Shown: one piece after another, positions 5,565 to 17,390 of the stretch | Position numbering within the stretch: position 1 is the stretch's first letter | Layout: each line of letters begins with the position of its first letter | Origin: a virus | IMG/VR virus record: IMGVR_UViG_3300027872_000016 | Span: 1-37,036 of that record | DNA length: 37,036 nucleotides | Reading direction: 5' to 3' (one strand) | Made by a program: the position numbers and the translations under genes | The notes under the pieces: generated by a model | Databases searched by the model: none | Told to the model about the DNA's origin: nothing | Seen by the model: only the letters and a program-made list of their open reading frames with translations

Positions 5565-5894
5565 ATGGGGAAAAATATTCAAAGACCCAGGTTAGGTCAG
5601 AAGATCCAAGCCCGCGACAGGCTGCGACGTATTACGAGGCGGCAGGGGTTGGGTAGTGCGTTCCGTAGTATGTGGGTGCTGTGTCAGGAAAGGCCTCTTA
5701 AGGCGAAACCTGTTGAAGGAATTTACATCGGCCACCGCACTTATTCAAACGGTCGTAAATGGTACGGTGGGGACGATGAAGGTACCCTGTACCAAGCGGA
5801 TGAATGGTTTGAGGTTTGGCTTATCATTCCAAGCGCACGAGAGAACCCCGTGCCAGTAATGCCAGAAGACACAGTGTGGTTAGAAAATGGTTAA
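5565..5894 (+). CDS. Hypothetical basic protein, 109 aa
   Basis: It begins directly after the preceding stop. The first 40 residues are strongly basic (RPRLGQKIQARDRLRRITRRQGLG) and the rest is beta-rich with a segment GIYIGHRTYSNGRKWYGG and EWFEVWLIIP. A partial resemblance in layout to the leftward protein at 9678-9935 (a VIGH strand near a Cys/Arg-rich start) was noted but is weak. Function unknown. Confidence 0.55.
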   Translation: MGKNIQRPRLGQKIQARDRLRRITRRQGLGSAFRSMWVLCQERPLKAKPVEGIYIGHRTYSNGRKWYGGDDEGTLYQADEWFEVWLIIPSARENPVPVMPEDTVWLENG

Positions 5895-6387
5895 CGATAC
5901 ACGCACACAATGGATTGGTGGGAACGGTTCTATTTGCGGATCTGGATCATCCCTCGAGGCCACTGTGGTGATGCGAGAACGACTCCCAATGCTCGCTAAA
6001 AGGTATGGCATTGAAACTGTCGCGGATGTTGGTTGCGGTGACCAATGGTGGGTAAGAAAGGTTGAGTGGGAGGTTGAGTATGAAGGCTTTGATATCGAAC
6101 ATCAGCCAGTCAAATTCAACTGTATCGTAGACGTGTTACCAAAGGCCTACGATTTAATCATGTGTTTATACGTCACCAACCATATGACGACTTGGAAATA
6201 CATCCAGCAAACGATTGAAAATTTTCAAAAGAGCGGAAGCAAGTATCTTCTGCTCACCTATGCAGACGGTCCAAAGGATCGTGAACCTTGGCATTGCCCA
6301 ATCGAGTGGCCACCGCTTGAATTGTTCCTTGCTAATGATAACCCGAAGTGGAAATGGTGGCATGGACTATGGGAATTAAAACCATGA
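5887..6387 (+). CDS. SAM-dependent methyltransferase, class I
   Basis: A 166-residue protein with a clear motif I, VADVGCGD at residues 45-52, then YEGFDIEHQPV (acidic strand-2 end) and KAYDLIMCLYVTNHM (motif IV region), followed by a helix and the strand KYLLLTYADG. These are the landmarks of compact phage methyltransferases. No DNA target-recognition domain is visible and there is no DPPY or PC motif, so DNA methylation is not implied. It overlaps both neighbours by a few bases and is the third methyltransferase-like gene of this module. Confidence 0.75.
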   Translation: MVNDTRTQWIGGNGSICGSGSSLEATVVMRERLPMLAKRYGIETVADVGCGDQWWVRKVEWEVEYEGFDIEHQPVKFNCIVDVLPKAYDLIMCLYVTNHMTTWKYIQQTIENFQKSGSKYLLLTYADGPKDREPWHCPIEWPPLELFLANDNPKWKWWHGLWELKP

Positions 6388-6554
6388 AAACATTAAACTG
6401 GTCACCCTTACGAGTTAATTTAACACGTGAGCAATTAACAGAACTACAGACTGATTGGTACAGTAGGTTTATACTGTGGCACATTTCAATCTGGTGTAAA
6501 CGATTGGCTAATCACATTCACGCTAAATATAATCCTAAACTGGACTTAACATGA
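6384..6554 (+). CDS. Hypothetical small protein, 56 aa
   Basis: The ATGA start overlaps the previous stop. The open frame extends upstream to a GTG at 6348, but ATG 6384 fits the coupling pattern of the module better. The protein is rich in Trp and His (WYSRFILWHISIWCKRLANHIHAKY), which could form an amphipathic or membrane-associated helix. No family recognised. Confidence 0.5.
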   Translation: MKTLNWSPLRVNLTREQLTELQTDWYSRFILWHISIWCKRLANHIHAKYNPKLDLT

Positions 6555-6739
6555 AAGCGACGTGGTGGGGATACAAACATATGAACGGCAGCATCCAGGT
6601 CAAGCTGTTCTTTGGTAAAATGGATTTGGTAGAGGCAGACGAGTCTCCTTTTGTTAGGAAAGTATTTCAACCCTTCGAGGCGGAAGGCAGAGAAGATGCG
6701 ATCAGCATAATCAAAAAGAAGGAGTCTTCAGATGGGTGA
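6551..6739 (+). CDS. Conserved-looking small phage protein, 62 aa
   Basis: The start overlaps the preceding stop by 4 bases. The sequence MKATWWGYKHMNGSIQVKLFF, then DESPFVRKVFQPFEAEGREDA, resembles a common small phage protein of unknown function (WGYKHxNGSIQVK ... SPFV ... PFEA.gR..A). No catalytic motif. It overlaps the zinc-finger gene at 6732. Confidence 0.6.
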   Translation: MKATWWGYKHMNGSIQVKLFFGKMDLVEADESPFVRKVFQPFEAEGREDAISIIKKKESSDG

Positions 6740-6911
6740 GTGTAAAGAGTGCGGATACGATACTGAGTTTCTATTCTGTGATTACCGTGTGCCTCCGTTG
6801 GCTACTACCGATTGCCTATGCCGTGACTGTGCGGGAGCGGCAGCGGTGGACCGGCTCGAGGAATTAGAAACGGAAATGAACGAAATTAATCAATATGTGG
6901 AACAGCTATGA
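6732..6911 (+). CDS. Small zinc-finger protein, 59 aa
   Basis: Read directly from the bases: ATG 6732 to TGA 6909-6911, in phase with 4-8 base overlaps on both sides, so it fills what would otherwise be a gap. The product has CKECGYD near the N-terminus and CLCRDC around residues 28-33, two cysteine pairs that would bind one zinc, followed by a Glu-rich helix (RLEELETEMNEINQYVEQL). Probably a small DNA- or protein-binding adaptor; function unknown. Confidence 0.6.
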   Translation: MGECKECGYDTEFLFCDYRVPPLATTDCLCRDCAGAAAVDRLEELETEMNEINQYVEQL

Positions 6912-7348
6912 GTGAAGGTCAACTGTGGAGTACGATGCGGCAGCAAATGGGAGCGGGCAAATGTTGGCGTGAGGCGACGCGGCATGAAGATGCTCTGCAA
7001 AAAGGTATCGCAGATGTATCCTACATTTCAATGCTCGGGCAACACGGGTGGATTGAGTTGAAGCAAGTCAACGAGTGGCCAAAGAGGGAGAGTACCATTT
7101 TACGAATCGATCACTATTCGGATGACCAGCGGATGTGGTTGAAGCGTAAAGGAAAATCCGGGGCCTTCACTTGGTTGTTCCTTAAGGTTCATCGTGACTA
7201 CATGCTCTTTGATTGGTTGTCGGCTCAACATGTAGGCACGATGCCTAAGAAGCAGTTGATGGGTGCGGCTTACGGGTTATGGCAAGGTAGGATGGACTGG
7301 GATGAGTTAGGTGAGAAGTTATGCAGAGAAACGAGGTATCTACCATGA
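6908..7348 (+). CDS. PD-(D/E)XK nuclease-like protein
   Basis: A 146-residue protein. Residues GIADVSYI (33-40, Asp36) and GWIELKQV (47-54, Glu50 and Lys52) match the D...ExK catalytic signature, with Glu27 as a possible extra helix residue. DDQRMWLKRKGKSGAFTWLFLKV then follows, as in VRR-NUC or Holliday-junction-resolvase-like folds. Such phage enzymes cut branched or foreign DNA during replication and recombination. The cellular target is not shown by the sequence. It overlaps both neighbours by 4 bases. Confidence 0.7.
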   Translation: MSEGQLWSTMRQQMGAGKCWREATRHEDALQKGIADVSYISMLGQHGWIELKQVNEWPKRESTILRIDHYSDDQRMWLKRKGKSGAFTWLFLKVHRDYMLFDWLSAQHVGTMPKKQLMGAAYGLWQGRMDWDELGEKLCRETRYLP

Positions 7349-7680
7349 AACTATTAGATAAGCTTTTCGGATTATTTGTAAAGAAGGAAGAGCCTAAACC
7401 AAAGAAGAAGGTCAAGCAACCTCACATTATCAGGGTGTCACATAAACCGATACCCTTCATAAAAATAGAGACAAAGAGCGCGGCGAGCTTAATTAGAGAA
7501 TCAAGAGACCATGTCATTAATCCGTGCAGGTGTGGGCTCAGTGATCACGGTATAGTCCATGAAACAAACGATCTTAAATATTATGTGATCTGTGAACCAT
7601 GCGGCCAGCGTATCGATCGCGATTGGGAGACGAGAGGTCTAGCGATCGAGTCATGGAACAGGAGTAGATACTCATTATGA
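7345..7680 (+). CDS. Lar-like zinc-ribbon protein (restriction-alleviation family-like)
   Basis: ATG 7345 is preferred to ATG 7321, since GAGG lies before it and it overlaps the previous TGA. The first 60 residues are basic and variable. The C-terminal 50 residues have CRCG (61-64), YYVICEPCGQRI (79-90; Cys83, Cys86) and AIESWNR (100-106), the layout of the Lar / restriction-alleviation zinc ribbon (C..CG, V.C..CG, AI..WN). In Rac prophage, Lar relieves type I restriction. Many phage proteins share the ribbon without known function, so anti-restriction is only a possibility. Confidence 0.6.
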   Translation: MKLLDKLFGLFVKKEEPKPKKKVKQPHIIRVSHKPIPFIKIETKSAASLIRESRDHVINPCRCGLSDHGIVHETNDLKYYVICEPCGQRIDRDWETRGLAIESWNRSRYSL

Positions 7681-7698
7681 AAAAGTGGAATTCAAATT

Positions 7699-7798
7699 GA
7701 GGAAATTATTCAAAAAAAATTATTCGAATGATTGAAATATTAATATGGGAAAAGTGATTTTGGATTGGAGGAAATTATTCAAAAAAATTATTCAAAAG
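7699..7798 (+). repeat. AT-rich direct repeat, two copies, in a 177-base gap
   Basis: The gap 7681-7857 holds no gene. GAGGAAATTATTC followed by an A-run and TTATTC occurs at about 7700-7726 and again at about 7769-7794, offset by 69 bases. Each copy itself contains ATTATTC twice. The stretch is far more AT-rich than the flanking genes and resembles the array at 14301-14394. It ends in the strong ribosome-binding site of the gene at 7858. Confidence 0.7.
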
Positions 7799-7857
7799 AT
7801 TGAATTTAATTTTGAAATAGTTTCTGGAAAATATTTGGAAAAGTAGGAGGAGATAAT

Positions 7858-8100
7858 ATGGAAGATGATTGTAAACATTCCTGGTTATTCGTCCCTGATT
7901 GGGAGGGTGACCCATCGCTACCGAACGGAGTCAATGATGTATCGTATTGGGTATGCGATGAGTGCGGGCAGGAAACCAACGAGCGACCGGAAGGAATTGA
8001 AGATGACTATCCTGGGCCAGATTTTAAGAAGAAAGAGCTCGGCGATATGATAGATGAGGCGGTTGACTACGTCTACGACCCTTTGGGGCGGGAGCCTTGA
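7858..8100 (+). CDS. Zinc-ribbon-like acidic protein, 80 aa
   Basis: The ATG follows AGGAGGAGATAAT, the same leader as at base 158. An N-terminal CKHSWLFVPDW and a YWVCDECGQET segment (about residues 30-40) give a CxH...CxxC zinc-ribbon pattern. The C-terminal half is acidic and helical (DMIDEAVDYVYDPL). A similar layout is seen in the truncated gene at 1-156. Function unknown. Confidence 0.6.
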   Translation: MEDDCKHSWLFVPDWEGDPSLPNGVNDVSYWVCDECGQETNERPEGIEDDYPGPDFKKKELGDMIDEAVDYVYDPLGREP

Positions 8101-8105
8101 GTTGG

Positions 8106-8200
8106 CATCACTGCGGCTCCACCTTTTTCTGAGCAAACGAAATCTTGTCAGAAAGAGCCTGCGGCCGAGGACCATCACTGCGGCTCCGCCTTTTTCTGAG
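8106..8200 (+). repeat. 28-base direct repeat in the 8101-8224 gap
   Basis: CATCACTGCGGCTCC(A/G)CC followed by TTTTTCTGAG occurs at 8106-8133 and 8173-8200, differing at one base. Between the copies, TCAGAAAGAG (8148 on) can pair with the CTTTTTCTGA of the first copy, so a hairpin is possible. No gene fits here. Confidence 0.75.
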
Positions 8201-8224
8201 AGATAGAAACTATGGGAGATAGAA

Positions 8225-8455
8225 ATGAGAAAGATAACACAACTTCACATTTCAAAGATATATGTCTTCGCTATTTGTGAAGATGGCACATTATGGAGAG
8301 CGAAAATATGGAATGAAGGTAAACCAATCTGGTTGAAGATGGATGGCCCACCTGAAGGCGATGGGCGCGAGCCGCCCTCACTCGAAGAGCAGGCTGAACA
8401 GCTCGCCGAAGGCGGTGGACGAAAATTAATAGTTGGACGAGGTAAAAAAGAATGA
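8225..8455 (+). CDS. Hypothetical protein, 76 aa
   Basis: ATG 8225 follows GGGAGATAGAA. The first half is beta-rich (KIYVFAICEDGTLWRAKIWNEG, a layout common in small phage WD-repeat-like or SH3-like proteins), then PPEGDGREPPSLEEQAEQLAEGGG is a flexible Gly/Glu/Pro stretch. It overlaps the regulator gene by 4 bases. No family assigned. Confidence 0.55.
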   Translation: MRKITQLHISKIYVFAICEDGTLWRAKIWNEGKPIWLKMDGPPEGDGREPPSLEEQAEQLAEGGGRKLIVGRGKKE

Positions 8456-8853
8456 AATTAAGACCGCATGAAGAATTTAGTCTCTGGAGAAGGCGTAACA
8501 ACTACTCACAGGCAGAGATAGCTGAGCGATTTAATATCAGCCAGGGTTACATTTCACATATGGAGCAGGGTGTTCGCCCTGTACCTAAAAAGATAAGAGG
8601 TGAAATGCCCCAGTGGATGAAAACAAGCGAGGGCGATGAGCTTTTGGTACGCATGAAAAGGCAGGGGTTAAATATGAATCTTGCGGTTGCAATGTTCAAG
8701 ATAACTCACACCAAATTACTCAGTTTCATCCGCAATGAAGAACCTGTGCCCACAGAAGTATGGGAGAGGTTGGAGCAGGATGAAAAGAGGTTTCAGGAAT
8801 ACAAAGCTGACCTAAAGGTTGCGGCTAAAACACTGAAAACTAAGGCAAATTAG
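8452..8853 (+). CDS. XRE-type DNA-binding regulator with two HTH-like segments
   Basis: A 133-residue protein. Residues about 9-43 (SLWRRRNNYSQAEIAERFNI, then SQGYISHMEQGVRPVP) are a clear HTH_3/XRE helix-turn-helix. A second segment, ELLVRMKRQGLNMNLAVAMFKITHTKLLSFIRNEEPVP, follows the same plan, so the protein may carry tandem HTH domains. The family includes CI/Cro-type phage repressors. As the last rightward gene before the convergent module, it is a candidate regulator of the box elements at 9.5-17.3 kb (inference). Confidence 0.75.
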   Translation: MKLRPHEEFSLWRRRNNYSQAEIAERFNISQGYISHMEQGVRPVPKKIRGEMPQWMKTSEGDELLVRMKRQGLNMNLAVAMFKITHTKLLSFIRNEEPVPTEVWERLEQDEKRFQEYKADLKVAAKTLKTKAN

Positions 8854-9113
8854 CTGCGGGGGCGGATGCTTTCATCATGCGAGAGCCGCTGTCTATGGCT
8901 ACCTAAGCCACGTTCATATAATACTTGTGCGTGGGTGCTTGTATTATACGGAGGCGAGAGACAGCCACACAGTGCCTTGTACCGTACAACCACCTCTATG
9001 GCTCTCTAAGCGCGGCACGGCAGCACCTACCACTGCTATTGGGTTATATATGAACGTGGCGTGTCGTGCCACTGTCGCAGCGTAATATAGTGGTGAAAGG
9101 TGTGGCGATCCGT
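8854..9113. other. Gene-free convergent region with an inverted repeat
   Basis: No credible gene. GCCACGTTCATATA (8907-8920) is repeated in inverse as TATATGAACGTGGC (9047-9060), 14 bases each, enclosing 126 bases. CTATGGCT occurs at 8893 and 8996, and GAGGCGAGAGACAGC (8951-8965) recurs exactly at 14615-14629. A box-like TTGTATTATACGG lies at 8939. The convergent position between rightward and leftward genes fits a structured transcript end or replication-related site, but no function can be assigned. Confidence 0.6.
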
Positions 9114-9140
9114 AAAAAAGCCCCGCGATGTTCTGCGGGG
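9114..9140 (-). terminator. Intrinsic terminator for the leftward gene 9154-9519
   Basis: On the minus strand a CCCCGC/GCGGGG stem with an 8-base loop is followed by a run of six T. It lies just beyond the stop at 9154. Confidence 0.85.
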
Positions 9141-9153
9141 ATAAATCAAACTA

Positions 9154-9519
9154 CTATGAAGATACGCGGTACTTGTTATCTTCACCTCGTAGTATCTTCA
9201 ACACCGGGCCAGCGGCCCACTTCGGGTTCTTTAAATCAACGATTGCGGTCTCAACTGTATTGGCCTTCACCGTTGAGCATTTGGCCAGGATCTCGTCCAT
9301 CGTGAAAGCTGATTTTTTGTTCTTGAACAACTCACGGATGACAGTTTTGGTTGAAGGTCCGCGTTTCTTTTCGCGGCGTTCGTCCTTCACGGCCGGCAGG
9401 GCTTCAATCTTTGCGATTATCTCAGCCTTCTTACCTTTCGCTTTTTTAACCTTCGTGCCGGCTCTACGATTCAGCTCGGTTGTGAGCTCGACCAGGTTCA
9501 TCTTTTTTAATGCTTTCAT
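9154..9519 (-). CDS. SAP-like N-terminus plus small C-terminal domain; paralogue of 15999-16247
   Basis: A 121-residue basic protein. Residues 1-45 (MNLVELTTELNRRAGTKV, KKAEIIAKIEAL) resemble a SAP or Rho-N-like helix-extended-helix DNA-binding unit. Residues about 56-120 (STKTVIRELF, AFTMDEILAKCS, NTVETAIVDLKNPKW, VLKILRG) align with the whole protein at 15999-16247. The C-terminal part has the strand-helix rhythm of a small winged-helix protein. It has its own promoter and terminator. A DNA-binding regulatory or architectural role is inferred. Confidence 0.7.
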   Translation of the reverse strand: MKALKKMNLVELTTELNRRAGTKVKKAKGKKAEIIAKIEALPAVKDERREKKRGPSTKTVIRELFKNKKSAFTMDEILAKCSTVKANTVETAIVDLKNPKWAAGPVLKILRGEDNKYRVSS

Positions 9520-9576
9520 TTGTAACTCCTTTCTAGGGGTAAACGGCTCATCGCTTTATTGCGAAGTCCGTATTAA

Positions 9577-9604
9577 ATGATACACCCTTTATTCTGAAAC
9601 ACAA
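9577..9604 (-). promoter_or_regulatory. Leftward sigma70-like promoter with box element
   Basis: Minus strand: TTGTGT (9604-9599), a 16-base spacer, TATCAT (9582-9577), upstream of the gene ending at 9154. The -10 lies inside the recurring box, here GTATTAAATGA on the plus strand (9570-9580). Confidence 0.6.
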
Positions 9605-9628
9605 GTAATCATTTATTTTCAATGACCC

Positions 9629-9653
9629 AAAAAAAAGCCTCGTTGACCGAGGC
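9629..9653 (-). terminator. Intrinsic terminator after 9678-9935
   Basis: Minus strand: GCCTCG, 5-base loop, CGAGGC, then eight T. It separates the 9678-9935 unit from the promoter of the next leftward gene. Confidence 0.85.
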
Positions 9654-9677
9654 TAAAATCAGCATCACACTGTGAAC

Positions 9678-9935
9678 TTAAATGACGCTGACCCTTTCAG
9701 TTACCCAAAGATCATCCATTAGAGTTTCAACGGGTACCATCACTTCCTGACGGGGATGCTTTTCAAAAGCGGTGTCCACATGAACTTCAATATGTAAGAA
9801 TAAGACACTGCCAACGTCTGTGTAATGACCGATGACTAAACCTTCAACGTATCGGTCACGTCGTCCTTCGCAGGGCTCGAAATCATAAGCGCGAATCCTT
9901 TGGCCGGGTTCAATGTATTCATATTTTAATGACAT
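9678..9935 (-). CDS. Hypothetical protein, 85 aa, beta-rich
   Basis: It starts behind the module's standard leader (AGAAAGGAGCAAATGAA then ATG). The product is beta-rich: a GQRIRAYDFEP start, then YVEGLVIGHYTDVGSVLFLHIEVHVD and VMVPVETLMDD. This is the shape of small SH3-like phage proteins, but no family was recognised. It is second in the unit after 9969-10640 and is followed by an intrinsic terminator. Confidence 0.6.
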   Translation of the reverse strand: MSLKYEYIEPGQRIRAYDFEPCEGRRDRYVEGLVIGHYTDVGSVLFLHIEVHVDTAFEKHPRQEVMVPVETLMDDLWVTERVSVI

Positions 9936-9968
9936 TTCATTTGCTCCTTTCTAATTGTAAAAAATTAA

Positions 9969-10640
9969 TCAATCTTGCTCGACGTGAGAAGGGTTCATTT
10001 CTCCCGCATCACTAATCATGCGTTTACGGGCGGCAGCGGAAGATGCGTCTTCAGCATCCCATTCACTGTACTTGGTGTTCAACCAACGAACCTTTCCGTG
10101 CTCTCGAAAGTAAATTCTGTACTCGCCATCAACTCCTTTCTCCGGATGGTGGTACCAGAAGATAACGTCACGTAAATCACCTTCATATTGCACTCTTGGC
10201 TTGAACTTACATTCAGGCATGAGGTCCTTTTTAAACTTAGTGACGTGATAAATGTGCGTCACACGATGACGACGTCCTTGCGTCCAGTCGACGATTTCAT
10301 TTCCATCGAAGGCACACATGTGAGCGCGGACAATGATGTAAAACTTCTTTCCCTTAGGCAATTCAGCCTCAAGAGAGTTCACAGTTTTACCTTCAAATGA
10401 ACCGGTCACGTTTACATAATGATGTTTAAGGTCTTCAACTGCGGGCAACCATTGCCCCATGTTCGTACCTTTACCCTTTCTTCGACCACGAGCTTTCAAT
10501 GTGGCGTGGGCGTCATCATATGTGCTGTCTGTGACGAGTGCGAGAGCCTTCACTGAACAGTCGTTGTCCTCGTAAAGCTCGTTGCTTCTATCCCGAAGGT
10601 ACTTGCGCTTTTCTGCGGATGAGTATGTTGCTATTGTCAT
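9969..10640 (-). CDS. Papain-like cysteine-protease-fold protein (putative)
   Basis: A 223-residue protein. Residues NDCSVKALALVTDSTYDDAH place Cys28 at the start of a helix, as in papain/C39-like phage proteins. FYIIVRAHMCAFDGNEIVDW places His107 on a strand with Asp118 near the next one, matching a Cys-His-Asp order. The C-terminal 100 residues are basic and beta-rich. It could be a peptidase, a peptidoglycan-directed amidase or an inactive relative. Its promoter and 5' UTR hairpin lie at 10661-10719. The protease call is inferred from residue order only. Confidence 0.5.
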   Translation of the reverse strand: MTIATYSSAEKRKYLRDRSNELYEDNDCSVKALALVTDSTYDDAHATLKARGRRKGKGTNMGQWLPAVEDLKHHYVNVTGSFEGKTVNSLEAELPKGKKFYIIVRAHMCAFDGNEIVDWTQGRRHRVTHIYHVTKFKKDLMPECKFKPRVQYEGDLRDVIFWYHHPEKGVDGEYRIYFREHGKVRWLNTKYSEWDAEDASSAAARKRMISDAGEMNPSHVEQD

Positions 10641-10660
10641 TTCGTTTGCTCCTTTCTAAT

Positions 10661-10683
10661 AGTAAACAACCAACTTGTCTACT
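10661..10683 (-). promoter_or_regulatory. 5' UTR hairpin, leftward
   Basis: On the transcript strand AGTAGACAA and TTGTTTACT pair (9 pairs, one G-U) around the loop GTTGG, between the -10 and the ribosome-binding site of 9969-10640. The same loop with a different but paired stem occurs at 11992-12012, so base changes are compensated. Confidence 0.7.
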
Positions 10684-10690
10684 GTATTAA

Positions 10691-10719
10691 ATGATAGCAT
10701 AAGAACGTGAGTTTTGCAA
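10691..10719 (-). promoter_or_regulatory. Leftward sigma70-like promoter with box element
   Basis: Minus strand: TTGCAA (10719-10714), 17-base spacer, TATCAT (10696-10691). GTATTAAATGA (10684-10694, plus strand) overlaps the -10. It drives 9969-10640 and 9678-9935. Confidence 0.65.
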
Positions 10720-10753
10720 CCTGTGATTGCAAATGAATTACAAGAAAATAATC

Positions 10754-10780
10754 AAAAAAAAGGGCGGCCGAAACCGCCCC
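10754..10780 (-). terminator. Intrinsic terminator after 10798-11199
   Basis: Minus strand: GGGCGG, loop TTTCGG, CCGCCC, then eight T. It ends the unit that begins at the promoter at 12022-12049. Confidence 0.9.
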
Positions 10781-10797
10781 AAAAGAGTAGGAGCAAA

Positions 10798-11199
10798 CTA
10801 CTCGTCATCAATAATAATGTACTGATCTAAATGGTTGGGTGGAACGAAAATGATCTCTTTAGTCTCGAGTATTTCCATCTTTGCCCACCGGTTATCGAAG
10901 TTCAAAACCTGAAGTTCAAAGCCCCCGTCTGTATAACGAACCTTGGGCAGCGGCTGACCGACAGCGAGGTGTTCTTCGTTAAGAAGGACTAAGCCGGCAT
11001 CGGCATCATCAAGAAACTCCGTAACCCGCTCTGAACGCTCGTCGTCTGTTTCTGAACGCTCTTGCACATGAAGGTCAATCACTGCGTCTATTGCATTTAT
11101 GATCTCACTGCGAGTGGGATGCTGCGGCTCCGCGGCGACCCAAATAATGCCCTTTTCGCAGAGCATCTGAACAATTTTTGTCGATAGCTTAACCATCAT
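10798..11199 (-). CDS. Hypothetical acidic protein, 133 aa
   Basis: The first ATG (11199) overlaps the stop of the upstream gene; a second ATG at 11196 is equally possible. The N-terminal half is helical and acidic (ERSETDDERSERVTEFLDDAD); the C-terminal half is beta-rich (VRYTDGGFELQVLNFDNRWAKMEILETKEIIFVPP) and ends in IIIDDE. No membrane segment or catalytic motif. Last gene of a four-gene unit ending at the terminator at 10754-10780. Confidence 0.6.
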   Translation of the reverse strand: MMVKLSTKIVQMLCEKGIIWVAAEPQHPTRSEIINAIDAVIDLHVQERSETDDERSERVTEFLDDADAGLVLLNEEHLAVGQPLPKVRYTDGGFELQVLNFDNRWAKMEILETKEIIFVPPNHLDQYIIIDDE

Positions 11200-11399
11200 T
11201 CATCTCCGTGTTGATAATCGCGATTGAAGTCATCTTCTGTATAATGCTTCACTACTTTCCCGCCGACGTTATTTGCTGCGCGTCGTGCTTGGCGATAAGT
11301 TTCGTAACCCGGTTCAGTTCCGGGGACCTTTTTGAGCGTGCCGTTGTGAAGATTGTAACCTCCACTTTTAGCTTTAAGTAATACAAAGTATTGATTCAT
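11196..11399 (-). CDS. Hypothetical basic protein, 67 aa
   Basis: The open frame extends to 11444, but the ATG at 11399 has AGGAGCAAAATC directly upstream, so it is the likely start. MNQYFVLLKAKSGGYNLHNG, then a YRQARRAANNVGGKVV segment, gives a small beta-alpha-beta protein in which QARRAA...VGGKVV resembles the ARxxAxxxGGxVV element of short phage host-takeover-type proteins. Function unknown. The last codons overlap the next gene. Confidence 0.6.
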   Translation of the reverse strand: MNQYFVLLKAKSGGYNLHNGTLKKVPGTEPGYETYRQARRAANNVGGKVVKHYTEDDFNRDYQHGDE

Positions 11400-11409
11400 G
11401 ATTTTGCTC

Positions 11410-11742
11410 CTAAAAGTTTCCAGTTTCGTATTCTTCGTATTCAAATACGATCGTTTCGTACTCGTGCTTTTCAGTGTGGTTTAATGCTTCCCAGTATTCA
11501 ATTGCGTCATCACTGATAATGTCGCGCTCGTTGGCTATGGTGACTTCAAAATAGTCGCAGCACATACTAAAAAGCATACTCCGTGAAGTCGTGTTCTCAT
11601 CGATGTCACCTTGAATGTCAGAGGCGAAACTTTGATACATGTGGTCAAATATGTAGACCAATTCAGAATCAATTGTCGGCTCTTCAGGGTTGACGTGCGG
11701 GTCTAAAACTGACACGCCGGGAGGAAGATTAGATTTATTCAT
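11410..11742 (-). CDS. Hypothetical acidic protein, 110 aa
   Basis: The frame runs up to 11889, but that part overlaps the upstream gene; AGGAGG lies 9 bases before the ATG at 11742, which is chosen (11748 is the alternative). The protein is acidic and mainly helical: LVYIFDHMYQSFASDIQG, FSMCCDYFEVTIANERD, then a Glu/Tyr-rich C-terminus (ETIVFEYEEYETGNF). No family recognised; a DNA-mimic-like charge is noted but not tested. Confidence 0.6.
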   Translation of the reverse strand: MNKSNLPPGVSVLDPHVNPEEPTIDSELVYIFDHMYQSFASDIQGDIDENTTSRSMLFSMCCDYFEVTIANERDIISDDAIEYWEALNHTEKHEYETIVFEYEEYETGNF

Positions 11743-11971
11743 GTTCATTTTCCTCCTCTTCCCTAACCACGCCAACGAGATCTTCAATGAAAGTCTCCAG
11801 CGTCTTATCGTAACTATTGCTGCTCCAACCGAAATCGAGGATGCCGTATGCTTTACACTTATTGACTTCGCGCGGGAAGTTCTCTTCAATTATGCCAACG
11901 CATTCGTCATGCACTTCTTTCAACTGGTCTAGCTGCCAGCGTAGTTCTTGGATTGCTTCTTTTTTACTCAT
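11735..11971 (-). CDS. Hypothetical acidic helical protein, 78 aa
   Basis: First gene of its unit, behind the standard leader AGAAAGGAGCAAATGAA and the hairpin at 11992-12012. The protein begins with a charged helix (KKEAIQELRWQLDQLKEVHDECVG) and ends EEEENEHE. No family recognised. It overlaps the next gene by 8 bases. Confidence 0.6.
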   Translation of the reverse strand: MSKKEAIQELRWQLDQLKEVHDECVGIIEENFPREVNKCKAYGILDFGWSSNSYDKTLETFIEDLVGVVREEEENEHE

Positions 11972-11991
11972 TTCATTTGCTCCTTTCTAAT

Positions 11992-12012
11992 GCTAATAAC
12001 CAACTTATTAGC
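11992..12012 (-). promoter_or_regulatory. 5' UTR hairpin, leftward
   Basis: On the transcript strand GCTAATAA and TTATTAGC pair perfectly (8 pairs) around the loop GTTGG, between the promoter at 12022-12049 and the ribosome-binding site of 11735-11971. The loop and position match the hairpin at 10661-10683. Confidence 0.75.
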
Positions 12013-12021
12013 TTGTATTAA

Positions 12022-12049
12022 ATGATAGCACAATGACTCGCATCTGCAA
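12022..12049 (-). promoter_or_regulatory. Leftward sigma70-like promoter with box element
   Basis: Minus strand: TTGCAG (12049-12044), 16-base spacer, TATCAT (12027-12022). The plus strand carries GTATTAAATGA at 12015-12025, overlapping the -10. Confidence 0.65.
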
Positions 12050-12150
12050 CCAATGAATATCTATGAATTTATGCTTTTGAAAACCTCCAAACATTTAGAA
12101 GAAAATAATCAAAATCAGGATTACGACAAAAGGTAGTATGTGACGAGGTC

Positions 12151-12525
12151 TCATTCCCAACTCCTATAATCATTGATGCGCTCGGGGTAAAATCTGTTGC
12201 CCCCATTCGTTTCACTTATCGCATCGTCCAACCAGCGTATACCATACTCCAGACGACTGAGACAGAAATGACTTAGGTCTTTATCGTGTACCGCAAAGAA
12301 AGTGTCGTTCCGGTCACCCGTTCCTTCAACGACATAACCCTGCGATGTTCTGTCAGGACCCGTCTTAACCTCTTCCAGAAATTGTACGCGAGTGTTAAAT
12401 TGTTCCAGCATAAAAGCGACGAACGCTTCCTTCTTATTTTCACCGACGACTGTCGCTTCCCATACGCACACTTGGCTGAAATTCTTGCGGCGTGGTATAT
12501 TATTGCGGCTGCTTGTTTTTTTCAT
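12151..12525 (-). CDS. Hypothetical protein, 124 aa
   Basis: The ATG at 12525 (GAGAGGATC upstream) is chosen over 12570, which lies inside the upstream gene. After a basic start (KKTSSRNNIPRRKNF) the protein reads VCVWEATVVGENKKEAFVAFML, QFLEEVKTGP, YVVEGTGDRND, an alternating strand and helix pattern. No catalytic motif identified. The space to the next leftward promoter (12050-12150) holds an AT-rich copy of the AAGAAAATAATCAA element and no visible terminator. Confidence 0.6.
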   Translation of the reverse strand: MKKTSSRNNIPRRKNFSQVCVWEATVVGENKKEAFVAFMLEQFNTRVQFLEEVKTGPDRTSQGYVVEGTGDRNDTFFAVHDKDLSHFCLSRLEYGIRWLDDAISETNGGNRFYPERINDYRSWE

Positions 12526-12527
12526 TG

Positions 12528-12761
12528 TTAGATCCTCTCCAGAAAAGTTTCGCAGGTGGCACATGCCCAAATCTTCTTTTTGGCGTACCCTGCTTTGAAG
12601 GATGCAAGGATCATCACTATTCCTACGGCCGTTCCCAGGATGGGAAGAAACAACAGCGCGAACCCGAGCAGGAAGAAAATAAGACCGACGAGTTGCTTGG
12701 TCCTACTCTTTTCAATTTTAGATGTTTTCTTCATCTCTGTATTACAATGTTGACATTTCAT
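12528..12761 (-). CDS. Small membrane protein with a split zinc-ribbon pattern, 77 aa
   Basis: It starts behind AGGAGAGCAATT. CQHC (residues 3-6) lies at the N-terminus and CATC (67-70) near the C-terminus. Between them is a hydrophobic stretch (about 24-57: LVGLIFFLLGFALLFLP, LGTAVGIVMILASF) long enough for two membrane helices. If it forms a hairpin in the membrane, the two cysteine pairs would meet on the same side and could bind one zinc. Function unknown; the topology is inferred. Confidence 0.65.
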   Translation of the reverse strand: MKCQHCNTEMKKTSKIEKSRTKQLVGLIFFLLGFALLFLPILGTAVGIVMILASFKAGYAKKKIWACATCETFLERI

Positions 12762-12788
12762 AATTGCTCTCCTGTTTAAAGAAAATAT

Positions 12789-13061
12789 TCAAAGTGATAT
12801 CCGTAGCCTAAAAACTTCAACATCAATATCACGATGCTCGAAGTTGGAGGGGGTGTTTAACGTCACCTCTATTTGCTCGTCGTCAACGAAAACTGTTCTG
12901 AATGTTCCAGCCGTTTGCCCGTTGTCGAGAGCCTCCCCGTAGAAGGTGACCCAAGCCTGAAGCAGGACACGTTCAATCGAGGCGTCTTCATGCGTCTCTA
13001 TCATGTAACCATCCACGTGCTCGCCATCTTCAGACATGACATGTACCTCTGTGCTTTTCAT
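12789..13061 (-). CDS. Hypothetical protein, 90 aa
   Basis: The frame is open to 13172, but GAGGGAGAATAAT places the start at ATG 13061. The protein is beta-rich and acidic (MKSTEVHVMSEDGEHVDGYMIET, TFRTVFVDDEQIEVTLNTP). Its stop codon lies inside the conserved TTTGAATATTTTC element. No family recognised. Confidence 0.55.
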   Translation of the reverse strand: MKSTEVHVMSEDGEHVDGYMIETHEDASIERVLLQAWVTFYGEALDNGQTAGTFRTVFVDDEQIEVTLNTPSNFEHRDIDVEVFRLRISL

Positions 13062-13062
13062 A

Positions 13063-13230
13063 TTATTCTCCCTCGTAAGGTAGAAGGTGATACTTGTCTT
13101 CAAAGTCTGCGATGGGGAGTGTATGTCCTTCACCGTTTTCTTCTTTGATGGTGCAAACGCCCCAGTCTTCATCCTTTGACATAAGTGTGACTTCTATGTC
13201 CGGACAATCAATGTAATAATGTGTACTCAT
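13063..13230 (-). CDS. Small hypothetical protein, 55 aa
   Basis: Read directly from the minus strand: ATG 13230 behind the standard leader AGAAAGGAGCAATATGAA, stop TAA at 13065-13063, one base before the next gene's ATG. The product MSTHYYIDCPDIEVTLMSKD continues to a C-terminal HLLPYEGE. It is acidic with two cysteines. It fills a gap that would otherwise be unexplained. No family recognised. Confidence 0.6.
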   Translation of the reverse strand: MSTHYYIDCPDIEVTLMSKDEDWGVCTIKEENGEGHTLPIADFEDKYHLLPYEGE

Positions 13231-13263
13231 TTCATATTGCTCCTTTCTATTTAAAGAAAATAT

Positions 13264-13479
13264 TCAGCTTGCTGTATCACTGATTAGGTTGCGAAGAAGA
13301 GGCTCAAGAATATCCTCGAGCATATCTTCGTGAACTGATTCGCTGCGGTAGTGAAATGTGGCGCTTACTTCTTCTCCATCGCCATCATATTTAACTTCAC
13401 AGTGGGCGTGTTTTATTGCGTCACTTCGAATCAAATTATTCAAAATTGCTTCCGCGGTTTCTTTTACGTCAATGCTCAT
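13264..13479 (-). CDS. Hypothetical acidic protein, 71 aa
   Basis: ATG 13479 (GGGGTG upstream) is preferred to the GTG at 13485, which overlaps the upstream stop. A helix (DVKETAEAILNNLIRSD), two strands (HCEVKYDGDGEEVSATFHYR) and a C-terminal acidic helix (EDMLEDILEPLLRNLI) are visible. No family recognised. Confidence 0.55.
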   Translation of the reverse strand: MSIDVKETAEAILNNLIRSDAIKHAHCEVKYDGDGEEVSATFHYRSESVHEDMLEDILEPLLRNLISDTAS

Positions 13480-13481
13480 GT

Positions 13482-13697
13482 TCACACCCCGCAGACGAAA
13501 AAGTTATTGTGAGCGTATGCCAGGAGTGAATAGTCGCCGGCCTGAATTACGATTGGTTGATAACGATCGCCTTCAGTCTTCACAATCAAATAACGCATGT
13601 GGCCCTTGCCAAACGATTTGGTAATTGCTGTTTCTGCGTTCTTGCGGCTGGCGTATGTTTTGGCCGCGCCGTTTTCATGGTTTACTAATGTTGCCAT
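13482..13697 (-). CDS. Hypothetical protein, 71 aa
   Basis: ATG 13697 sits behind AGAAAGGAGCAATATGAA; the open frame to 13721 covers only the leader. MATLVNHENGAAKTYASRKN, then AITKSFGKGHMRYLIVKTEGDRYQPIVI, suggests a small alpha/beta protein of the phage host-takeover size class. Function unknown. Confidence 0.6.
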   Translation of the reverse strand: MATLVNHENGAAKTYASRKNAETAITKSFGKGHMRYLIVKTEGDRYQPIVIQAGDYSLLAYAHNNFFVCGV

Positions 13698-13744
13698 TTC
13701 ATATTGCTCCTTTCTAATCAAAGAAAATAATCAATCTCGTCTTC

Positions 13745-13921
13745 TTAATACTCCGAAGCGAGGGCTTGTGTGGCGAGTTTGATGACTGCGGCGCACTGAA
13801 TATCAGTAGGGCGTGGCAGCATTCTTTCCTTCGCTAGTTCTCGAACATAGTGATCATCATGCGGCCCTTCTGTTCCGACGATGACACAGGCGATTTTTAA
13901 GTAGTCTTCTGCAGTCCACAT
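13745..13921 (-). CDS. Small hypothetical protein, 58 aa
   Basis: Read directly from the minus strand: ATG 13921 behind AAAGGAGCAAAGTAAA, stop TAA at 13747-13745. The product MWTAEDYLKIACVIVGTEGP continues through YVRELAKERMLP and ends ALASEY; it is mainly helical. The previous gene's stop lies within its ribosome-binding region (tight coupling). No family recognised. Confidence 0.6.
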   Translation of the reverse strand: MWTAEDYLKIACVIVGTEGPHDDHYVRELAKERMLPRPTDIQCAAVIKLATQALASEY

Positions 13922-13922
13922 T

Positions 13923-14183
13923 TTACTTTGCTCCTTTCTTTAAACGCATCACATGACCGAAAGCATCTTCGAGTTTTGCATGTGAGGCTAAATGACGAAT
14001 GTAACTTTCGTCGAGTTCCTGACCATCGTGGTCAGTGGTGACGATGCTGACCCATTCATAAACGGGAAAGTAGTCAGTGGAGACGCATTGAATGCGAATA
14101 TTGGGGTCCGCTATGAACTCCCATTCGTCATCTTCAAGCAGAGGCTCCGTCGCCGGTACAAATTTAAACTGTTCGTTTGACAT
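13923..14183 (-). CDS. Hypothetical protein, 86 aa
   Basis: First gene of a long leftward unit, behind the standard AGAAAGGAGCAAATGAA leader and the promoter at 14226-14253. Acidic N-terminal half (LLEDDEWEFIADPNIRI), central strands (YEWVSIVTTDHDGQELDESY) and a basic C-terminus (MRLKKGAK), whose codons double as the ribosome-binding site of the next gene. No family recognised. Confidence 0.6.
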   Translation of the reverse strand: MSNEQFKFVPATEPLLEDDEWEFIADPNIRIQCVSTDYFPVYEWVSIVTTDHDGQELDESYIRHLASHAKLEDAFGHVMRLKKGAK

Positions 14184-14225
14184 TTCATTTGCTCCTTTCT
14201 ATTAAAATAAAACTCTTACATAATA

Positions 14226-14253
14226 AGTATAGCAGGTGTGTCGTTTAATACAA
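14226..14253 (-). promoter_or_regulatory. Leftward sigma70-like promoter, box at the -35
   Basis: Minus strand: TTGTAT (14253-14248), 16-base spacer, TATACT (14231-14226). Here the box variant GTATTAAACGA supplies the -35 instead of the -10. It should drive the long unit 14183 to 12151. Confidence 0.65.
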
Positions 14254-14300
14254 GCATTGATTTGTATGAATGCACGAGTGATTTTGGGTTTTGAAATCCT

Positions 14301-14394
14301 CCAAAATATTCAAAGAAAATATTCAAACTCATCAAACTCAGAACTCAAAATCCAGTTTTCAGTTTTGCCAAAATATTCAAAGAAAATATTCAAA
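14301..14394. repeat. 27-base perfect direct repeat, AT-rich
   Basis: CCAAAATATTCAAAG followed by AAAATATTCAAA occurs at 14301-14327 and 14368-14394, identical over 27 bases and offset by 67. Each copy holds AAAATATTCAAA twice, so there are four ATATTC units. A diverged copy with the same preceding TTTTGAAA.CCTCC lies near 12072-12116, and related arrays lie at 7700-7794. Confidence 0.85.
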
Positions 14395-15229
14395 TTCGCG
14401 GATTCGTTTTTCGCAATTTCTACTCAATTTGACTGACGCCGTTTCGAATTTTTTTAGAAAACGATTCAGGATTTGATTTGAATTTAAGTTCAATTTCATT
14501 TGGAGTTAGGGGCGAGTACGCTGCGGCACTGCGCTTGGTTACGCGAGGCTACGAGTATGGCTGCGTGTCGCGTTTCGTTGGTACGTGGGTGGCTGTGCTA
14601 TGCGCGTATATAGCGAGGCGAGAGACAGCGAACGAAGTTTACATACTGAGCGCTAAAGAAGCGGCTACGAGCTTTTGGTTGCGCTGCGGCTGCGGCTGGT
14701 TGGATTTCTTGCGGCTCAGGTTTTTTGAGTCAGATTGAAATCATCCGCGAGGCTGCGGCTGCGGCTCGTGTCATTGCGGCTCGCTTTCTTTCTGACGTTC
14801 TGAAATCAAGACATTTGAAACCTCGATTCAGTCTATCATAGCTGAAACCTATGACTGAGCTGAAAGGTATTGGCTGAAGCTATGCTGCCTCTATGGCTAT
14901 CTGAAAGGCTGAAATCTCACATGTGGATTCATAACTGAAATCATGTGTGGGCTCAGATGTGGAATCACATATGGTTTCATCCATAAGGGCATATGGCTGT
15001 CTGAGCGGCTGAAAGACTGGGCTGGTACTAGCGCTTGGGTATTAAATGAGTGGCGTGTCGGCCGAATGACTGGCACACGATCTTGGCAGAGGCGGGTGGC
15101 AAATGGTGGGCTGGTGCTAGTGTACGGGTATTATTTGAACGCGGGAGAGAGCCACCTCTTTAAGAGGCATATGGTGAAAGAGCTGTGCGCAGTTTGCGCA
15201 CTGGGGCGAGGCATGGTGAAACGCGAGGC
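14395..15229. other. Gene-free region rich in short repeats
   Basis: No convincing gene in about 830 bases. Two open frames on the plus strand (14478-14738 and 14943-15332) have no ribosome-binding site, an unnatural composition and, for the second, run through a leftward terminator. GCTGCGGCT and CTGAAA recur many times, CCTCTATGGCT (14888-14898) matches 8993-9003, and GAGGCGAGAGACAGC (14615-14629) matches 8951-8965. GTATTAAATGA lies at 15039-15049 and a related GGGTATTATTTGAAC near 15126. It could encode a structured RNA; no transcript signal is proven. Confidence 0.55.
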
Positions 15230-15253
15230 AAAAAAAAGCCCGCCGAAGCGGGC
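15230..15253 (-). terminator. Intrinsic terminator after 15274-15489
   Basis: Minus strand: GCCCGC, tetraloop TTCG, GCGGGC, then eight T. Confidence 0.9.
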
Positions 15254-15273
15254 CGAACGAGGATTGGTGAAAA

Positions 15274-15489
15274 TTACTGCTCGCGGTACATGCCGAGTGA
15301 ATATGCGAGGTTACTGCTTTCGATTTTGGTGAAGGCAAGCGCTCCCGTATTATCGAAATCGTCAAAGTGACCGACGAGATCATAATTTTGAAAAATCCAA
15401 ACTGAGCTCCCGTAATCTGAAATTTTGGGCGACCGAAAGATTTTTTTGGCAGCGGTGATGAGCGCGATTTTTGATGTGAATCTTTTCAT
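15274..15489 (-). CDS. Hypothetical basic protein, 71 aa
   Basis: ATG 15489 sits behind AGAAAGGAGCAAATGAA; the longer frame to 15519 runs into a terminator. Basic N-terminal half (MKRFTSKIALITAAKKIFRS), then VWIFQNYDLVGHFDDFDNTGALAF. The intrinsic terminator at 15509-15540 lies immediately upstream of its ribosome-binding site, so expression needs read-through from 15548-15676 or an unseen promoter. No family recognised. Confidence 0.55.
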   Translation of the reverse strand: MKRFTSKIALITAAKKIFRSPKISDYGSSVWIFQNYDLVGHFDDFDNTGALAFTKIESSNLAYSLGMYREQ

Positions 15490-15508
15490 TTCATTTGCTC
15501 CTTTCTTG

Positions 15509-15540
15509 AAAAAAAACAAGCACGTGGTTAAACGTGCTTG
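15509..15540 (-). terminator. Intrinsic terminator between two small leftward genes
   Basis: Minus strand: CAAGCACGT, 6-base loop, ACGTGCTTG, then eight T. The T-run ends a few bases before the ribosome-binding site of 15274-15489, so it can act as an attenuator. Confidence 0.85.
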
Positions 15541-15547
15541 CTGGTGT

Positions 15548-15676
15548 TTACTGAATTGCGTTTAAAACAGCTTCTAATTCAGTGGTATGATTTGCAACTT
15601 TCTCAGAAGCGTTGACAATAAACGTGTAGCCGAGGTAGCTGAAGTATGCTGCGATTGCGATAATTACTTTTTTCAT
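15548..15676 (-). CDS. Very small membrane or secreted protein, 42 aa
   Basis: Read directly from the minus strand: ATG 15676 behind AAAGAAAGGAAACGAAA, stop TAA 15550-15548, with its own promoter (15717-15744) and terminator (15509-15540). The product begins MKKVIIAIAAYFSYLGYTFI, a basic start and a hydrophobic helix that could be a signal or membrane anchor, then NASEKVANHTTELEAVLNAIQ, a short amphipathic helix. The complete transcription unit around so small a frame makes it credible. Function unknown. Confidence 0.6.
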   Translation of the reverse strand: MKKVIIAIAAYFSYLGYTFIVNASEKVANHTTELEAVLNAIQ

Positions 15677-15716
15677 TTTCGTTTCCTTTCTTTGTGTTTG
15701 TTTAAATTACAGTATA

Positions 15717-15744
15717 AGTATAGTAGTTCTGTCATATAATACAA
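15717..15744 (-). promoter_or_regulatory. Leftward sigma70-like promoter, box at the -35
   Basis: Minus strand: TTGTAT (15744-15739), 16-base spacer, TATACT (15722-15717). The box variant GTATTATATGA supplies the -35. The following gap to 15954 holds no gene but has an exact GTATTAAATGA at 15854-15864. Confidence 0.65.
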
Positions 15745-15954
15745 GTCATTTCACCACTCATTTGCCATTCATTTTAGTAAATAATTAACATTTCTTGGAG
15801 CGCTGTCTTAGCCGATACGGGGCTTTCAGGGTGTAACCAATGCACTAGCATGGGTATTAAATGAGCCGGTATACGCAGCCAATGAGTACGGTAGATGTAG
15901 TATATGAGCTTTGGGGGGTGTTTTAAGCAGTGTACTGGTGGGGAATGACGAGGC

Positions 15955-15980
15955 AAAAAAAAGCGCCGACGAGCGGCGCT
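15955..15980 (-). terminator. Intrinsic terminator after 15999-16247
   Basis: Minus strand: AGCGCCG, 5-base loop, CGGCGCT, then about eight T. Confidence 0.9.
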
Positions 15981-15998
15981 AGTAAAGCGGTGGTGAAG

Positions 15999-16247
15999 TT
16001 ACTTGCTAATGACAAATTGCTTTTTCTCATTTTTTGCAAGTACCAGGATATCACCAACTGACCATTTAGGATTTTTAAGGTCGATAATGGCAGTCTCAAC
16101 AGTGTTGGGCTTTACTTGACGAGCAAGGGCAGCGTTACACTTTTTGATTAACTGAGCTATGGTGAACGCTCCTTTAGGTGAAGCGGCATATATAGCGCGG
16201 ATAACTGTTTTGGTTGAACGTGCTTTTGTTTTAGTAGTTTTACTCAT
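15999..16247 (-). CDS. Small basic protein, paralogue of the C-terminal domain of 9154-9519
   Basis: An 82-residue protein with the shared pattern STKTVIRAIY, GAFTIAQLIKKC, NTVETAIIDLKNPKW and DILVLAKNEKK, matching residues 56-120 of the protein at 9154-9519 but lacking its SAP-like N-terminus. It has a complete unit of promoter (16299-16326), leader and terminator. The two paralogues bracket the leftward module. A small winged-helix-like DNA-binding role is inferred from size, charge and its partner. Confidence 0.7.
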   Translation of the reverse strand: MSKTTKTKARSTKTVIRAIYAASPKGAFTIAQLIKKCNAALARQVKPNTVETAIIDLKNPKWSVGDILVLAKNEKKQFVISK

Positions 16248-16298
16248 TTCTATTTCCTTTCTTCGTTTAAGTTAAACATTATTGCTTAACATGTACTA

Positions 16299-16326
16299 AT
16301 TATAGTACCAGTGTCATATAATACAA
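16299..16326 (-). promoter_or_regulatory. Leftward sigma70-like promoter, box at the -35
   Basis: Minus strand: TTGTAT (16326-16321), 16-base spacer, consensus TATAAT (16304-16299). The box variant GTATTATATGA again supplies the -35. Best -10 of the leftward set. Confidence 0.7.
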
Positions 16327-16390
16327 CCATATCACCCAAATGATTATAGTAAATAACGCACATAATCAGGGGTGTGAAAGGGGGTATATC

Positions 16391-16495
16391 GGCATGTATA
16401 TTGCATGGTGATAGAAGGTGAAATCGGCACGGTTATTGCTTAGTATATGATGGTGAAAGGGGCATGGTAATTGCATGTGATTAGTGCGTACTGAC
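16391..16495. repeat. 35-base tandem repeat, three units plus a degenerate fourth
   Basis: GGCA(T/C)G followed by (T/A)ATTGC recurs at 16391, 16426 and 16461, exactly 35 bases apart, with GGTGA and GTGAAA conserved later in the unit. A fourth, diverged unit begins near 16496 (AGCATGTGTATGGCAC). The array lies in the gene-free space between divergent leftward and rightward genes. Confidence 0.7.
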
Positions 16496-16623
16496 AGCAT
16501 GTGTATGGCACAGGGTTGAGCGGGGTTCATTCCCTGCCTCTACGAATTCCGTTCTCAGCGCTCATCGGTCAGCCTTCACTTTCACTGAAACTGAAAGAGC
16601 GGCGACCACACTGCAGACGATAT

Positions 16624-16800
16624 CTTATAGACTGAAGATGGCCTTACAGACTGAAGCAGATAGCAGACAGCCTTACAGACTGAAGCAGAAGGCAGGTGGC
16701 CTTACAGACTGAAGATGATCTTATAGAGTGAGGCAGAAGGCAGACTGAATCTTACAGAGTGCAGAGTGCAGATCTACTCTTACAGACTGAAGCAGAGTGC
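16624..16800. repeat. Seven-copy CTTACAGACTGAAG repeat array
   Basis: CTTA(C/T)AGA(C/G)TGAAG-like units start at 16624, 16643, 16672, 16701, 16720, 16751 and 16779, giving steps of 19, 29, 29, 19, 31 and 28 bases; CAGAAGGCAG or CAGAGTGCAG often follows. Repeat lengths and spacers are irregular, so it is not a CRISPR array. Together with 16391-16495 it makes a long iteron-like stretch upstream of the late genes. Confidence 0.75.
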
Positions 16801-16968
16801 AGACCAGACAGCAGAAGGCAGAGTCCACCAAGGTGGCACAGAAATGAAGAGCAGACCACTTGGATGAACCCCCGCTGAAACAGAAGGGTGCTAGGGTGGT
16901 GAGTATTTGACAAAGAACAGCAACCACAAGCGTTATGCCTGTAGAAAGTGTATAGGGGAGCAATTGTA

Positions 16969-17297
16969 GTTTACTATATTGAGCATGATATCGCAAGCCA
17001 GTTTACAAATGATTTCAAAGACTTAGTTCTGGTTTACCACTTCACGTGTATTAAATGATATCGCAAATATGGCAATTTACCTGGATATTCAACCAATACT
17101 ACTATATTGAATTCAATAACTTACCACTGGTTTACCATGATGAACAGAGCCAGCTTGTCCGGATTACTTAAAGTAAACTGTTCTCGAGCAGACTCCTACT
17201 TGTCGTCCAATACAAATCAATTAATACATGAGAATCGCTTACATACCATTTATCAATGGTTTATATCGGTTTACCTGTTTAGATGTATTGAATGAGC
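16969..17297. promoter_or_regulatory. Repeat-rich control region upstream of the terminase genes
   Basis: GTTTAC(C/T/A) occurs at 16969, 17001, 17032, 17130, 17269 and 17382, and inverted at 17172-17178. ATGATATCGCAA is repeated at 16985-16996 and 17055-17066, and CTATATTGA at 16974 and 17102. GTTTACC, 8 bases, TGTATT(A/G)AATGA occurs twice with identical spacing (17032 and 17269). No gene is credible before 17417. The pattern suggests operators or an origin near the divergent late promoter. Confidence 0.6.
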
Positions 17298-17362
17298 GGT
17301 CACAACTGTGCGTCATTTCTTGGGGTGCGCGACCCTTCTGTCCAAAAGTATTATGCGAATAC

Positions 17363-17390
17363 TTGCAGATCGCTCATAACAGTTTACTAT
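17363..17390 (+). promoter_or_regulatory. Likely late promoter upstream of the small terminase gene
   Basis: TTGCAG (17363-17368), 16-base spacer, TACTAT (17385-17390), 27 bases before the start at 17417. A GTTTACT repeat overlaps the -10. The -35 matches others in this phage. Confidence 0.5.

Follow-up and report, generated by a model that had tools for sequence, protein, structure and literature searches.

A stretch of viral DNA from IMG/VR (record IMGVR_UViG_3300027872_000016, positions 1 to 37,036; the whole of it is referred to as the window) contains an 11-base box, GTATTAAATGA, that recurs at every promoter of a leftward-transcribed gene module. Its arrangement and conservation suggest, at a probability of roughly 0.64, that the box is the operator of one regulator, a repressor, for this module. 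The window of 37,036 bases is probably part of the genome of an uncultured tailed phage. Rightward genes extend up to 8853, a leftward block spans 16247 to 9154, and the genes for head and packaging, again rightward, begin at about 17.4 kb. We read the leftward block as split by intrinsic terminators into six operons, with promoters near 16314, 15732, 14241, 12015, 10684, and 9570. The literature searched yielded no paper on the promoters or the transcription control of this phage group, and dispersed operators of this kind can reveal the regulons of uncultured phages without experiments.

Distribution and conservation of the box

Six exact copies of GTATTAAATGA are present on the plus strand (9570, 10684, 12015, 15039, 15854, and 17048), against an expectation of 0.026–0.075 copies on both strands (Markov orders 1–4); they are accompanied by a dozen variants located between 8914 and 17348. 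A scoring matrix trained solely on the promoter boxes of the relatives recovers 17 sites of at least 9 bits in the window, whereas 60 simulated sequences averaged 3.5 such sites and never had more than 9; all but one of the 17 fall in the region 8914–17348. The exact copies are precisely where a first-pass annotation of the sequence had placed them. The one-mismatch copies that it reported are likewise real (17285, plus; 14241–14251, 15732–15742, and 16314–16324, minus, where it had given the 5' ends of the boxes), but it overlooked two more on the minus strand (8914 and 17217) and weaker copies at 8941, 15128, 15897, and 17348. Its placement of the boxes outside genes also holds, because the overlapping open reading frames on the plus strand are antisense or spurious, and the copy at 17285 precedes the likely start of the terminase small subunit near 17418.

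All six delimited leftward operons have a sigma-70-like promoter with exactly one box. At three of these promoters (class A; 9570, 10684, and 12015), the box is oriented opposite to transcription and lies over the −10/+1 region, following the layout TTGCAR-16/17-TATCATTTAATAC, with a weak −35 at 9570; the leaders end with AGAAAGGAG, and most begin with a small hairpin. At the other three (class B; 14241, 15732, and 16314), the box is oriented with transcription and contains most of the −35 (TTGTAT-16-TATAMT), following the layout TTGTATTATATGA-9-TATAAT with a spacer of 16 base pairs (bp) throughout.

The leftward block is largely syntenic with that of G2 (IMG/VR 3300022226_000012; 42 kb), whose terminase and XRE-type protein are 79% and 63% identical to those of the window; a second relative, L001, has a terminase that is 97% identical. 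At five promoters that are orthologous between the window and G2, the box is identical in 55 of 55 bases, whereas the other aligned flanking bases, excluding the ribosome-binding site, agree in only 280 of 478 (59%; Fisher p = 1e-12). At two class A promoters of G2 (26207 and 27762), a complete TATACT or TATAAT precedes the box, which lies 3 bp further from the −35/−10 than at 12015 of the window. The intact −10 and the 3-bp shift indicate that the box is maintained as an element of its own and does not itself form the −10. The first-pass annotation had assigned the −35 of one set of promoters and the −10 of the other to the box; the former assignment stands, whereas the latter is only half right, since the box overlaps TATCAT in the window yet is a separate element by the evidence of the orthologous promoters. 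The broader notion of one element that serves differently placed promoters across the leftward module is borne out by its conservation in G2.

A search of 2.9 million viral contigs with the class B pattern (21 stretches) and with the class A pattern including the ribosome-binding site (3 stretches) found several promoter copies only in L001 and G2; we take the remaining stretches to be chance matches. A single box of the exact type occurs at position 4211 of L126, in a class-A-like cassette, but was rejected as a case of independent conservation because L126 and G2 stem from the same metagenome and share 119 bases at 100% identity about 2 kb away. This shared segment (G2 1–119, L126 6361–6479) is located at a contig end of phages that are otherwise about 66% identical and represents either a recombination junction or an assembly artefact; the box at 4211 may have been carried along by recombination or assembly.

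The cassette in L126 bears on an alternative explanation, in which the box is merely part of a duplicated promoter-leader unit (AATTCAT, TTGCAR, TATNNT, box, leader hairpin, ribosome-binding site) and its conserved bases serve as −10, discriminator, and transcript start. The class A promoters do share the upstream AATTCAT, the TTGCAR, the 5' leader hairpins, and AGAAAGGAG. However, duplication of such a unit leaves the reversed class B box over the −35 and all non-promoter copies unaccounted for, and the box has stayed unchanged next to a diverged spacer and has even moved by 3 bp relative to the −10, which makes this explanation unlikely.

Candidate readers of the box

The first and last genes of the module encode a pair of paralogous proteins with a predicted winged-helix topology, whose models show weak structural matches to domains of the PhoB/AdeR type. 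The family is present in exactly the three box-bearing records (window, L001, and G2) and was not found in four relatives without the box family. The predicted recognition helix, NTVETAIIDLKN, is nearly invariant across paralogs and phages, as is the box, and each of the two genes is preceded by a box of its own. On these grounds, the winged-helix pair is the likeliest, if tentative, candidate for the protein that reads the box. No relatives of the family were found in the annotated phage collection searched, and a search of bacterial genomes found no relative of either the terminase or the winged-helix protein.

The reader proposed in the first-pass annotation was the XRE-type protein encoded upstream of the module, with its two helix-turn-helix domains placed on the asymmetric site. 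Its gene adjoins the module, its model comprises two lambda-repressor-like domains suited to such a site (predicted local distance difference test score, pLDDT, 87), and between the window and G2, two phages with the box in common, there is no difference in its first recognition helix (QGYISHME). In the relative L003, a variant repeat, GTAYACNSTTGAGC, occupies two corresponding places, and the recognition helix of the XRE protein is changed (a hand reading of two copies only). By contrast, at least eight relatives (L003, L124, L125/L126, L129, L130/L131, L133, L140, and L146) encode an XRE homolog immediately before the terminase, and a degenerate pattern detected no more than one box in any of their XRE-bearing stretches; the longer records of L124, L125, and L126 have a single copy of the exact type among the three. 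The XRE protein is therefore more widespread than the box, whereas the distribution of the winged-helix family equals that of the box. Moreover, a different repeat, AACAGTTTACTATTGG, which is found upstream of the terminase in the window, L001, G2, and L003, tracks the XRE protein at least as well as the box does. The XRE protein is thus not singled out and seems a doubtful reader. The box, itself highly conserved, is thereby paired with two short lists of candidate readers, and for neither list was a relative found in the annotated phage collection searched.

Mode of action and further copies

As an operator, the box (GTATTAWAYGA) would be an asymmetric binding site for a DNA-binding regulator encoded by the phage. 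Every host-type (sigma-70) promoter of the leftward module is overlapped by one copy, either reversed at about −10 to +4 or with transcription at about −32 to −22, and because both positions lie under RNA polymerase, a protein bound at either of them would collide with the polymerase and block initiation. The genes of the module would be transcribed on entry and then be shut down jointly once the repressor accumulates, and the winged-helix pair would be autoregulated because each gene has its own box. Lysogenic immunity is less likely than a lytic lifestyle in which early genes are shut off; searches of the window, L001, G2, and two further relatives, all of which may be fragments, found neither a tyrosine nor a serine integrase.

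A single protein acting at all six promoters would most simply be a repressor. The class B box, which replaces most of the −35 (TTGTAT) and is combined with a 16-bp spacer and a good −10, would also suit an activator or a factor that modifies and steers the host RNA polymerase, in a position like that of the MotA box of phage T4. However, the class A box covers about −10 to +4 and leaves hardly any room for an activator, beside a −35 that is acceptable, which renders a purely activating role quite unlikely. A search with RNA_pol for a phage RNA polymerase had no match, and neither did its control; the −35/−10 geometry argues for the host polymerase.

The remaining copies fall into two classes (Table 1). 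Those of class C lie shortly past leftward terminators (near 9121, 15237, and 15962), are in many cases preceded by CTAG and GGG, and have no convincing −35. A role as structured RNA was rejected for the box, since folding of the class C regions gave z-scores of only −1.6 to +1.1 and there was no Rfam match. The class D copies (17048, 17217, and 17285) are interspersed among GTTTAC repeats upstream of the terminase. This cluster might evoke iterons of a replication origin or a packaging signal, but the best-conserved copies are those at the promoters, one per operon and irregularly spaced over 7 kb, which makes such a function highly improbable.

Table 1. Boxes, candidate readers, and terminators in the window
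Position	Strand	Feature	Remarks
9570..9580	+	Class A box GTATTAAATGA, over −10/+1 of the leftward promoter of gene 9154–9519 (TATCATTTAATAC on minus)	Identical at orthologous G2 24341
10684..10694	+	Class A box; promoter TTGCAA-17-TATCAT, genes 10640–9678	Identical at G2 25166
12015..12025	+	Class A box; promoter TTGCAG-16-TATCAT, genes 11971–10798	Identical at G2 26207, there 3 bp further from −10
14241..14251	-	Class B box GTATTAAACGA, over −35 of TTGTAT-16-TATACT; genes 14183 leftwards	Identical in L001
15732..15742	-	Class B box GTATTATATGA; TTGTAT-16-TATACT, peptide gene 15548–15676	Identical at G2 29031
16314..16324	-	Class B box GTATTATATGA; TTGTAT-16-TATAAT, gene 15999–16247	Identical at G2 29662 and L001 2997
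8914..8924	-	Class C box GTATTATATGA, between XRE gene and terminator 9121–9140	GTATTACATGA at G2 23677
8941..8951	+	Class C weak box GTATTATACGG	
15039..15049	+	Class C box, exact, downstream of terminator 15237–15254	Identical in L001
15128..15138	+	Class C box GTATTATTTGA, repeated CTAG...GGGTATTA context	Exact box at L001 1815
15854..15864	+	Class C box, exact, downstream of terminator 15962–15980	Drifted to GTAATATTTGA in G2
15897..15907	+	Class C box GTAGTATATGA	
17048..17058	+	Class D box, exact, upstream of terminase small subunit	Identical in L001
17217..17227	-	Class D box GTATTAATTGA	Identical in L001
17285..17295	+	Class D box GTATTGAATGA	Identical in L001
15999..16247	-	Predicted winged-helix protein, 82 amino acids, first gene of module; candidate reader	AlphaFold2 pLDDT 78, winged-helix topology
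9154..9519	-	Winged-helix paralog, 121 amino acids, last gene of module; candidate reader	45% identity to 15999–16247 over 76 amino acids
8452..8853	+	XRE-type protein, 133 amino acids, two tandem helix-turn-helix domains; first-pass candidate	Sequence matches; model
9121..9140	-	Leftward intrinsic terminator, 3' of 9154–9519	
9636..9654	-	Leftward intrinsic terminator	
10761..10780	-	Leftward intrinsic terminator	
15237..15254	-	Leftward intrinsic terminator	
15962..15980	-	Leftward intrinsic terminator, 3' of 15999–16247	

Several observations weigh against the box as the operator of a repressor. About half of the copies (15039, 15128, 15854, 15897, 8914, 8941, and 17048–17285) have no recognizable promoter, and those of class C have drifted relative to G2, with 53 of 66 bases identical in six pairs (hand count). 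Weaker variants occur at three rightward promoters of G2 (173, 14981, and 20021), and perhaps also at the rightward promoter at 1190 of the window. The regulon is therefore perhaps not confined to the leftward module, and the first-pass proposal of an operator for this module, although right in that all six leftward promoters carry the box, is incomplete. The co-distribution of the box with the winged-helix family is partly trivial and not independent, because the winged-helix genes lie inside the module, and it is possible that an activator operates at the class B promoters. The most far-reaching version of the operator hypothesis appears rather unlikely as a whole: a phage without detectable lysogeny genes that turns off an early module, an asymmetric operator that is functional whichever way it faces and whichever end of the promoter it occupies, a new winged-helix family that brackets and autoregulates the module, and copies behind terminators that act as roadblocks to read-through.

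The region upstream of the terminase harbors additional repeats. Four phages (window 17173, minus, and 17382, plus; L003 823, minus, and 1017, plus; G2 30703; and L001) have retained AACAGTTTACTATTGG in front of the small-subunit gene, partly as two inverted copies separated by about 200 bases, with further GTTTAC copies at 16969–17382 of the window; it is possibly a late promoter, a packaging site, or a target of the XRE protein. L003 also has two copies of AGAGAGTAYACRSTTGAGCTA (around 790–820 and 940–990) after the XRE gene and before the terminase, where the window has boxes, and these are a possible counterpart of the box. L124 and L126 carry a repeated TTCTCGTTTTG (around 2340–2640 and 8940–9070, respectively) upstream of the small subunit, where the window has its GTTTAC repeats.

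In L124 and L125/L126 (terminase 72% identical), the slot between the XRE and terminase genes is occupied by rightward single-gene operons. Each of these operons has a promoter of the type TTGACA-17-TATAAT, with a lineage-specific, near-palindromic GTGTTATAATTATAACAC over the −10/+1 region; operons of this type with near-identical promoters (L124 around 1005, 1411, 2001, and 10812; L126 around 7564, 7886, and 8375) are mostly located in the same slot. This suggests that a module of small genes with its own operator-like word in the XRE–terminase slot is a habit of the group.

Further repeats were observed. Words of the AAAATATTCAAAG type are among the commonest repeats of the window (14300–14400, 7690–7850, and between leftward genes) and, likewise placed, of G2, with 4–10 copies per genome depending on word length. 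A non-coding array of degenerate CTTACAGACTGAAGCAGA units extends over 16607–16823 of the window and has a comparable counterpart in G2 made up of different words (GACATCTGAAGAC), and L005 and L128 have strong lineage-specific repeats of the type ACCGGGCAGGGTAG (12 copies) and CTTAACATAAT (11 copies).

G2 (L014) encodes QueE-like, QueC-like, GTP cyclohydrolase, and queuine tRNA-ribosyltransferase-like proteins at 3113–8573, which suggests a 7-deazaguanine modification of its DNA, and also carries a clamp and a DNA polymerase; in these genes it resembles the Queuovirinae phages 9g and NP1. If the box is indeed the operator of a repressor, a network for early-gene shut-off would exist in a lineage with a relative that carries 7-deazaguanine DNA-modification genes.

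Comparison with known systems

The middle promoters of phage T4 all combine a good −10 with a MotA box that is centered near −30 and substitutes for the −35. The three class B promoters share this arrangement, whereas the three class A promoters have the box over the −10/+1 region and have kept their own −35.

The SPBRE of the Bacillus prophage SPbeta, a 15-bp motif, is bound by MrpR, the master repressor of a temperate phage with the fold of a tyrosine recombinase (PMC10516654). Like the box, it is a repeated element at many phage promoters that was found by sequence, and it is read by one master repressor. The window, L001, and G2 gave no match to the Phage_integrase family, but all three are possibly fragments, and an MrpR-like protein that has diverged could escape detection.

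In cluster A mycobacteriophages (L5, the immunity repressor of TipsytheTRex), the orientation of operators and stoperators follows transcription, and reversal abolishes repression; the immunity repressor is a monomer with two DNA-binding domains (PMC9283540). The box resembles stoperators of the L5 type in that many copies of a short asymmetric site occur at promoters and at other intergenic places, and its non-promoter copies recall stoperators. The XRE protein, too, has two predicted helix-turn-helix domains like the L5-type repressor but is not tied to the box. By contrast, three of the boxes at the six co-directional leftward promoters are reversed and three are not, and the sequence differs. 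The L5-type system belongs to temperate phages with an immunity repressor; no integrase was found in the present records, which may be fragments. Because the defining link between orientation and transcription is absent, the box is not a member of the stoperator kind. What it does share with repressor operators in general is the overlap with core promoter elements, a conservation that exceeds that of its flanks, and its presence at the promoters of one module.

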